Shown one piece after another: positions 45,772 through 48,238 of a stretch of DNA of 64,000 nt (the stretch's first letter is position 1; each line of letters opens with the position of its first letter). Source of the DNA: Pseudomonadota bacterium (lineage in GTDB: Bacteria > Desulfobacterota > Desulfobulbia > Desulfobulbales > Desulfocapsaceae); contig JAHJKP010000008.1 in assembly GCA_018821985.1 (NCBI GenBank), positions 62,001-126,000 of the forward strand, read 5' to 3'. A model generated the notes under the pieces. The model was given only the letters and a program-made list of their open reading frames with translations, was not told where the DNA came from and did no database searches. A program made the translations under genes and the position numbers.

Positions 45772-46491
45772 TCAATCAAAAGCATCCGTTGTTTTCCACT
45801 CTTTCCAAACCATCCCTACAAGGTTAATTCCCGGCTTCAGGGTCCTTTTACCAGGCTGCCATCCAGACGGTGTTGCCTCTGCACCTTTGGTTTCCCGCAC
45901 CAATTGGAAAGCTTGAAGTTGACGAAAGGTCTCATTAACATTGCGTCCAACAGGCGGTGTCAATACCTCATAACCCTGAACAACTCCATCGGGATCAATG
46001 ATAAAGCGACCGCGAGCCTCAACACCGGCGTTTTCATCATATACACCATACACCGTTCCAACCTTTCCGCCCGCATCTGAAAGCATTGGATAGGGCACTC
46101 CTCCCTTCACCATATGCTCCAACTCATGATCATTCCACATCTTGTGGACAAACATGGAATCTATGGACATGGAAAGTACTTCAGCACCAAGTTTTTGAAA
46201 TTCTGGATATTTTTCAGCAACTGCTGAAATTTCTGTTGCTCAGACAAAGGTAAAATCGCCTGGATAAAAACAGAGCAATACCCATTTTCCAAGAAAATCA
46301 GAAAGCTTCACATTCACAAACGCCCCTTTATGATAACCGGGAGCAATAAAATCAGGCGCCTTTTGTCCTACTTTAATCATTGACTGTTCCTCCTTTGAAA
46401 TTTCATGTGATTGTGGAGTCTCATTTTTATTTTCCTCACCTACTGGACCACCTGTCGGCCTGGCACATCCAACGGCTGCTTCCTCTGCCAT
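45772..46491 (-). CDS. Selenocysteine-containing peroxiredoxin (AhpC/TSA family)
   Basis: A TGA at 46242-46240 interrupts the frame exactly where 2-Cys peroxiredoxins have the peroxidatic cysteine (FYPGDFTFV then U84 then ATEISA). The reading frame continues through clear AhpC sequence ([39 protein letters not shown]). Read through, it gives 239 residues, longer than a plain AhpC. A hairpin suited to a bacterial SECIS starts ten bases after the TGA. The usual C-terminal resolving motif VCP is replaced by ATPSGW, while Cys9 lies in an N-terminal extension. AGGAGG is well spaced from the ATG at 46491. It should reduce peroxides. A sequencing error is far less likely given the context. Confidence 0.93.
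46212..46229 (-). promoter_or_regulatory. Bacterial SECIS-like hairpin
   Basis: On the minus strand, ten bases after the TGA (46242-46240), a seven-base perfect stem (TTTCAGC with GCTGAAA) closes a four-base AGTT loop that contains the G-U expected for SelB binding. The distance from TGA to the loop is 17 bases, within the range known for bacterial SECIS elements. It overlaps codons of the peroxiredoxin. Confidence 0.8.
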
Positions 46492-46612
46492 AAGCACCTC
46501 CTATCTTGATGGACGGAAAAATAGGATACGGCCAACCCGCATCCTATTGTGTATTTGCTCAGTATATACAACTTCTATGCCCATGTCCATGGGACATAGA
46601 CAACAAAAACTC

Positions 46613-48238
46613 CTAACATTTTTCCACTTCGCCCAACAGTCCGCCTTTTTTTTTCCTGAACCTAGTATCCTTTCTAAGGATATCGCGATGTTCCGGGTAA
46701 TCAACAAGATAATGCAGTCCGCGAGATTCCTTCCTGAGCAAAGCCGACTGTATTATTAATAGCGAGACAAGGGCTATATTTCGCAACTCAATCATATTCG
46801 GAGTAACAAAATAATCTCTATAATGTTCTTCTATCTCTTGAAAAATACCCTTAATATGCCTTTTTGCCAGTTGTAACCTCTTAACCGTCCGCACTATTCC
46901 CACATAATTCCACATAATTCGCCTGATGAGGTCCCAATTATGATGTATCAAAATTTCCTCGTTCAACTCTTTCGCTCCTCCAGCCTGCCAGGGTTCAATT
47001 TTCGGATAGGGTTTTTGAGATATTTCCGACCAATGATCAGCACAATATTCATAAGCCCTTTCCGCAAAAACGACAGCCTCGAGCAGGGAGTTGCTTGCAA
47101 GGCGATTTCCCCCATGTAATCCGGTACATGCGGTCTCCCCGAGTGCCAAGAGCCCTTCAATAGATGTTCTTCCCCATGTATCCGTCTGCACGCCTCCGCA
47201 CATATAATGAGCCGCCGGCACGACAGGGATAAGTTCACTAGTAATATCAATACCATACTCAAGGCATCGCGCGTAAATTGTGGGAAATCGCTCTTTCACA
47301 AACGCCTTGTCTTTATGGGTAATGTCAAGGAAAACACAGTCGACTCCACTCTCCTTCATTTCTTTATCTATAGCCCTGGCCACTGTATCCCTGGTTGCTA
47401 GATCTTTACGACTGTCATATTTTTCCATGAATGGCCGTCCGTCCCGACCTACAAGAATTGCTCCTTCTCCCCGTACTGCCTCGGAGATTAAAAAGTTCTT
47501 CGCCTTTGGGTGATAAAGACAGGTGGGATGAAATTGGACAAACTCCATATTGGCCATCACCGCCCCGGCCCTGAATGCCATCGCTAACCCATCTCCGGTC
47601 GCGATATCTGGATTAGTCGTATAGAGATACACCTTGCCCGTCCCCCCCGTACAGAGTATCGTAACCTTAGCCTGATAGGTTTCAACATTCCGCTCCTCCG
47701 TCAGCACATAGGCTCCGGCACAATACTGTCCCCCTCTTTCCGTCTCACCCTTTTCATCCACCATAAGCAGATCTATCGCTCTATGGTTTTCTAATATTTG
47801 TATTTTGGGATTCTGTTTCACCTTTACCAACAAGGCGCGCTCGATTTCCCTGCCCGTGAAATCATGCGCATGCGCAACCCGCCTCTCGGAGTGCCCTCCC
47901 TCCCGACCCAAGTCCAACCCTGAAGAATCTCGAGCATCTTTCACAAAATCTACCCCCAGTGCCATCAACTCCCTTACCCTCTCAGGCCCTTTATCCACAA
48001 CAAGAGCAACGACCTCTTTATCGCACAACCCAGCTCCGCTTATAATTGTATCCTCAATATGATTTTTTTTTGAGTCATGGTCCGACAATACAGCTGCGAT
48101 CCCCCCCTGAGCTAAATTGGTGGCTGTGTCAATCTCACTCTTTTTTGTTACAATCACCACAGAACCCAACCGAGCCACGCGCAAGGCGAATGAGAGCCCA
48201 GCTATTCCACTACCAATAATCAGGAAATCACATTTCAT
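46613..48238 (-). CDS. nadB: L-aspartate oxidase NadB
   Basis: NadB oxidises L-aspartate to iminoaspartate, the first step of de novo NAD synthesis; anaerobes use fumarate as electron acceptor. The 541-residue flavoprotein has the FAD site FLIIGSGIAGLSFALRV, then GREGGHSERRVAHAHDFTG with substrate-binding residues, and EFVQFHPTCLYHP. The start lies 21 bases from the parS site, which therefore falls in its promoter region. The selenoprotein gene follows 121 bases downstream on the same strand. NadA and NadC are not in the window. Confidence 0.95.
   Translation of the reverse strand: MKCDFLIIGSGIAGLSFALRVARLGSVVIVTKKSEIDTATNLAQGGIAAVLSDHDSKKNHIEDTIISGAGLCDKEVVALVVDKGPERVRELMALGVDFVKDARDSSGLDLGREGGHSERRVAHAHDFTGREIERALLVKVKQNPKIQILENHRAIDLLMVDEKGETERGGQYCAGAYVLTEERNVETYQAKVTILCTGGTGKVYLYTTNPDIATGDGLAMAFRAGAVMANMEFVQFHPTCLYHPKAKNFLISEAVRGEGAILVGRDGRPFMEKYDSRKDLATRDTVARAIDKEMKESGVDCVFLDITHKDKAFVKERFPTIYARCLEYGIDITSELIPVVPAAHYMCGGVQTDTWGRTSIEGLLALGETACTGLHGGNRLASNSLLEAVVFAERAYEYCADHWSEISQKPYPKIEPWQAGGAKELNEEILIHHNWDLIRRIMWNYVGIVRTVKRLQLAKRHIKGIFQEIEEHYRDYFVTPNMIELRNIALVSLLIIQSALLRKESRGLHYLVDYPEHRDILRKDTRFRKKKGGLLGEVEKC

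Follow-up and report, generated by a model that had tools for sequence, protein, structure and literature searches.

Selenocysteine (Sec) peroxiredoxins of the PrxU type were founded on PrxU of Peptoclostridium (Eubacterium) acidaminophilum (Soehling et al. 2001, as cited in the available text of PMC13188914). Sec peroxiredoxins have been listed for deltaproteobacteria and clostridia (available text of PMC1794560), and CLOST_2406 of C. sticklandii is recorded as one with Sec at position 84 of 240 residues (available text of PMC3091704). Motifs place the listed proteins in the same family, that of C. sticklandii also by length and Sec position, and the available portions of both sources mention neither an internal start nor an N-terminal Cys. 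Typical 2-Cys peroxiredoxins (AhpC/Prx1) share the fold and the peroxidatic loop with the protein described here; they carry a peroxidatic Cys and a C-terminal Cys within VCPxGW, whereas our protein has Sec and, in the sequence EATPSGW, Thr at these places.

The gene, prxU, lies on the minus strand of the analysed stretch of DNA (the window, 64,000 nucleotides). Its whole product reaches 411 bits with the NCBIfam model NF040737 (peroxi_PrxU, cut-off 270) and 183.5 bits with that of typical 2-Cys AhpC (TIGR03137), below the cut-off of 272. It is 66.5% identical to P. acidaminophilum PrxU over 239 residues, i.e. over the whole length, and the two genes share an identical hairpin (UUUCAGC-AGUU-GCUGAAA), Sec at residue 84 when read from the upstream start, an N-terminal GCARP, the lack of a C-terminal resolving Cys and two starts led by Shine-Dalgarno (SD) sequences; in the founder both SDs are strong and the internal start gives Sec47. 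They differ in the residues following GCARP (KSQ in the founder, TGG in the window) and in location, the founder gene being plasmid-borne and in a clostridial relative. RefSeq annotates the latter (L221, NZ_CP007453 357087-357809) from the upstream start, with Sec84 and 240 residues. Since the founder shares hairpin and layout and Sec peroxiredoxins have already been listed elsewhere, the window gene is a further member of the known PrxU family. The first-pass annotation of this DNA gave no PrxU family name and mentioned neither an N-terminal extension with Cys, nor an internal start, nor that the resolving Cys had been lost. The features discussed below are, in the direction of transcription:

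46496..46503, minus strand: Shine-Dalgarno TAGGAGGT of the upstream start (sequence; family mean match about 6.2)
45772..46491, minus strand: prxU long frame, predicted selenocysteine peroxiredoxin of 239 residues with Sec at 84 (NF040737, translation)
46435..46470, minus strand: conserved N-terminal motif of 12 residues that includes GCxRPTGG, with invariant Cys9 (protein kept, synonymous change free)
46381..46434, minus strand: variable linker rich in E/K/T/P/Q, predicted disordered (composition; pLDDT < 50 for residues 8-33)
46389..46395, minus strand: putative internal Shine-Dalgarno AAGGAGG (codon-level selection, 132 genes)
46378..46380, minus strand: putative internal start ATG, Met38 (internal Met in 132/132 extension genes)
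46270..46272, minus strand: Cys74, ten residues ahead of Sec and invariant in the clade (conservation)
46240..46242, minus strand: UGA predicted as selenocysteine 84, peroxidatic position in FTFV-U-ATE (TGA in relatives)
46212..46229, minus strand: predicted SECIS hairpin, 7-bp stem and AGUU loop (covariation, MFE -8.0)
45871..45873, minus strand: Thr207 instead of the resolving Cys near the C-terminus, EATPSGW for VCPxGW (alignments)

The in-frame UGA and its hairpin

The frame runs from ATG 46491-46489 to the terminal TGA 45774-45772, and translation confirmed at exactly 46242-46240 (codon 84) the in-frame TGA which the first-pass annotation had placed at the catalytic FTFV-U-ATE. Because this UGA stands for selenocysteine, ordinary gene callers cut prxU in two; as had been foreseen, calling with table 11 returns two ORFs, 46240-46497 and 45772-46170. 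The accompanying claim that both flanks of the TGA align with the family also holds, each half alone matching NF040737 (104 and 286 bits). The predicted fold is confidently that of a peroxiredoxin (mean pLDDT 87), with 2-Cys Prx and AhpC as best PDB matches. A first AlphaFold model built from 47 near relatives was poor (pLDDT 59) and was discarded, a more diverse alignment having remedied the core.

The proposed seven-base stem with AGTT loop at the right distance was likewise recovered. It consists of the 5′ arm UUUCAGC (46229-46223), the loop AGUU (46222-46219) and the 3′ arm GCUGAAA (46218-46212). The bacterial SECIS model of a 2026 review (available text of PMC13188914) specifies a loop of 3-9 nt, an upper stem of 4-16 bp, 16-37 nt between UGA and loop, a G within loop positions 1-2 (N1-G-[GU]-N2, with N1 and N2 pairable) and an MFE of -7.5 kcal/mol or below. 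The prxU hairpin has a loop of 4 nt, a stem of 7 bp, a distance of 17 nt from UGA to apical loop and, for the 20-nt element, an MFE of -8.0 kcal/mol (z -3.8). Over 151 distinct Sec genes the loop reads AGUU in 90 and GGUC in 58, its ends thus being A-U or G-C in accord with the loop rule, and 1031 of the 1057 cells across the seven stem pairs are paired. Two stem positions display all four Watson-Crick pair types (pair 2: UA 97, GC 19, CG 18, AU 7; pair 5: GC 70, AU 67, CG 8, UA 4), which amounts to strong compensatory change. Synonymous freedom is low at the codons over the stem. In shuffle controls with 21 genes, the covariation score and the number of paired cells were reached in none of 500 cases, and slid controls collapse. 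On these sequence comparisons, the hairpin is not due to chance; by sequence and fold rules it would be a bacterial SECIS, for which SelB binding is predicted.

Within the window prxU is a solitary gene outside any oxidative-stress cluster, located downstream of the gene for a nadB-like FAD protein (46613-48238, minus strand), and facing an ORF that has no Pfam match. Upstream, at 46574-46600 (minus strand), lies the imperfect palindrome TCTATGTCCCATGGACATGGGCATAGA, which was considered as a possible operator or hairpin and rejected: the nearest species (L043) has preserved it, L038 has it in eroded form, and it is missing from others such as L044. Elsewhere prxU is often found near genes for rubrerythrin, catalase-peroxidase (KatG) and a Fur/PerR-type regulator, and further neighbours resemble flavodiiron and hybrid-cluster proteins, all identities being read from sequence. 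No dominant gene partner emerged from the neighbourhoods in other genomes.

Family members and selenium machinery

Among 97 related genomes all 20 matches above cut-off contain exactly one TGA, which falls on the peroxidatic codon in each of those extracted. A phylum sample yielded 108 family matches at E <= 1e-70 in 95 of 297 genomes, only seven of them without TGA. A Cys-pattern scan of the best 80 of 574 relatives from named genomes found TGA at the peroxidatic codon in 80 of 80, a count that leans to close relatives because only these best 80 were taken, the 97-genome and phylum counts being less biased. TGA stands at this same codon in 151 distinct genes, and the protein is conserved on both flanks. 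The first-pass annotation had suggested an alignment to Sec peroxiredoxins and had named TGC or TGT at this codon as counter-evidence; nearly all family members show Sec at that position, and close copies have TGA instead. A 2013 survey (available text of PMC4046663) had found PrxU genes in no more than two sulfate reducers; compared with 95 of 297 phylum genomes, the family has been badly undercounted. The true Cys versions of the family use TGC or TGT. One of them, L167 in genome G369, which also harbours a Sec paralogue, combines the N-terminal extension with TGC at the catalytic codon; by reading of the sequence its SECIS loop is lost and part of the stem decayed, and it is a natural Sec-to-Cys reversion. 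No relatives of prxU were found among viral contigs; in a record of a Microcystis phage (MW495066.1, 40487-40990) a peroxiredoxin gene is labelled 'prxU selenocysteine-containing', with 45% identity for the match.

The source genome (3.34 Mb, 57 contigs, 99.9% complete) bears out the prediction of a Sec decoding system outside the window, whose absence had been regarded as decisive against the Sec reading: all four components are present, namely SelA (628 bits), SelB (391), SelD (380) and a tRNA-Sec with UCA anticodon (58.7 bits in Rfam, gathering threshold 47). ARAGORN missed this tRNA, although Rfam found it, and a candidate second SelB (L008) was rejected as EF-Tu. SelD, too, is encoded by a UGA gene, its in-frame TGA lying in the catalytic site (KAAGUAAKLGPGD), and another contig carries a second prxU with TGA at the same codon. 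In four of 19 prxU-bearing relatives (G037, G020, G010 and G023; loci L226-L237) SelA was undetectable by profile and protein search; these contain SelB and a tRNA-Sec of 70-74 bits, and two of them are one- and two-contig assemblies. In these relatives SelA might have been lost in assembly, or a different Sec synthase might take its place. The selA gene of the window genome lies ca. 0.55 kb from a 16S rRNA gene (L015 3405-3504). This adjacency explains why in many drafts selA is no more than a few hundred bases away from the end of a contig, but it does not account for the lack of selA in closed genomes.

Two other readings of the UGA have to be weighed. That prxU is a decayed peroxiredoxin, or its TGA a sequencing error, gains some support from broken prxU copies in relatives, L048 (G009) with TAA and a frame break and L156 (G277) with an in-frame TAG; G055:C23 is also broken, and all three represent either real decay or assembly errors. 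Nevertheless, the full-length match, the same-codon TGA of the 151 genes with its conserved flanks and the covarying hairpin render this explanation vanishingly improbable. Insertion of Trp or Cys by readthrough without selenium would rely on near-cognate UGA reading, which occurs in general. It is very improbable in view of the complete Sec machinery, the rule-conforming hairpin, the catalytic position of the codon and the use of TGC/TGT in the family's true Cys versions, the lone one with the extension (L167) showing the hairpin damage described above. We therefore judge from sequence that prxU is almost certainly intact and encodes a working selenocysteine peroxiredoxin of PrxU type. Against this stand the four relatives with undetectable SelA, although the window's own genome has SelA, and the solitary position of prxU in the window. 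SelB carrying Sec-tRNA-Sec would bind the AGUU hairpin 17 nt downstream, whereupon the ribosome would read UGA46242 as Sec.

N-terminal extension and two probable starts

The extension ahead of the peroxiredoxin domain is absent from ordinary peroxiredoxins, and among 58 genomes its exact motif occurs only in prxU. The motif is translated, since its synonymous sites change freely although the amino acids are conserved. The internal Met sits where ordinary peroxiredoxins begin and is found in all 132 genes with extension, 7-16 codons ahead of APDF. A short isoform from Met38 would have 202 residues with Sec at 47. The founder PrxU was reportedly published with 203 residues and Sec47, which is exactly its short frame.

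In these 132 genes the match of the internal SD to the anti-SD averages 6.35 bases, vs 3.31 after recoding the same amino acids from each gene's own codons, and none of 500 null sets of 132 genes went beyond 4.10; by a strict rule 7 of the 132 have no internal SD, including L046, which was scored at the first Met of the span and not at the conserved one. The upstream SD is equally good (mean match 6.16). Where Lys-Glu is encoded at the internal SD site, GGAG or AGGA is used in 81 of 85 cases, compared with 32 of 105 Lys-Glu pairs in the rest of these genes; the counted genes share ancestry, and the corresponding P values are not literal. Spacing between SD and internal ATG is 8 nt in 98 of 122, and other internal Mets of the gene body are not preceded by an SD signal. 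The stronger argument for two starts is the SD/ATG pair itself, which tracks the linker length, its two parts shifting together in the most divergent members, and is spread from Bacillota to Chloroflexota and the desulfo-lineages.

The retention of internal Met and SD beside an SD-led upstream start implies two isoforms, and prxU probably makes both a long and a short form. Use of a single start appears unlikely. The internal SD/ATG would then be either a silent ancestral relic, with only the long form produced, or a translational pause before the UGA. Ordinary peroxiredoxins begin at this point, the SD could be inherited, RefSeq gives only the long form for P. acidaminophilum, and SD-like sequences within coding regions can slow ribosomes. 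A relic, however, would not retain the SD codons to the extent seen in the recoding comparison and at the Lys-Glu sites, and a pause requires neither an ATG at initiation spacing nor one which follows the SD when the linker changes in length. No report of two starts or of an N-terminal Cys in PrxU was found in the literature covered, which was largely without subscription papers.

Resolution of the oxidised selenium

Peroxiredoxins are peroxidases served by thioredoxin-type reductants. In analogy, Sec84 would attack H2O2 or an organic peroxide to form a selenenic acid, which would be resolved by a thiol and recycled by thioredoxin or a like reductant. The two starts would supply a long form, whose tethered Cys9 might resolve Sec84, and a short form lacking Cys9, which would be a 1-Sec enzyme.

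No member that carries the extension lacks Cys9, which is the clade's sole conserved Cys outside the fold core and sits on a tether predicted to be disordered and present only in the long form. These members have EATPSGW or variants with V, A, M or I, mostly Thr, in place of the resolving Cys. Where the extension is missing, members retain VCP/ACP, show PCGW in a shifted position or carry Cys at +111 and +143, and three contain no Cys whatever. The gain of the extension and the loss of the C-terminal Cys coincide in the tree at the base of one clade. We dropped this exchange of N- and C-terminal Cys as strong statistical evidence because it is essentially one event. The structural model says nothing on docking of Cys9 since the N-terminus stays disordered.

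In our estimation, the odds that Sec84 of the long form is resolved by the tethered Cys9 are about even. Only slightly less probable is a 1-Sec enzyme served by an outside thiol, with the N-terminal motif devoted to partner docking or to the sensing of metal or redox state. It agrees with the short isoform, whose only Cys is Cys74 in a core strand, with two sub-lineages which dropped the extension without regaining a resolving Cys, one of them entirely Cys-free (L172, L178, L181), and with L046 and L192, which possess both the N-terminal and the C-terminal Cys; the single tree event also deprives the exchange of independent support. The invariance of Cys9, its unique position outside the core and the coincident loss of the C-terminal Cys speak against a role of Cys9 apart from resolution. 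We tentatively propose, as a possible though somewhat doubtful general scheme, that in several phyla PrxU genes have dual starts, so that a single mRNA would yield both a long form, in which Cys9 replaces the lost C-terminal resolving Cys, and a short form lacking Cys9.

To our knowledge, neither a resolving Cys on an N-terminal tether nor a pair of selected starts in one selenoprotein would have a precedent among peroxiredoxins. If the dual-start reading is true, the cell could tune the resolution of oxidised selenium. The conserved internal start thus raises the question of whether a selenoenzyme of oxygen defence is made in two forms, with and without its own resolving thiol.
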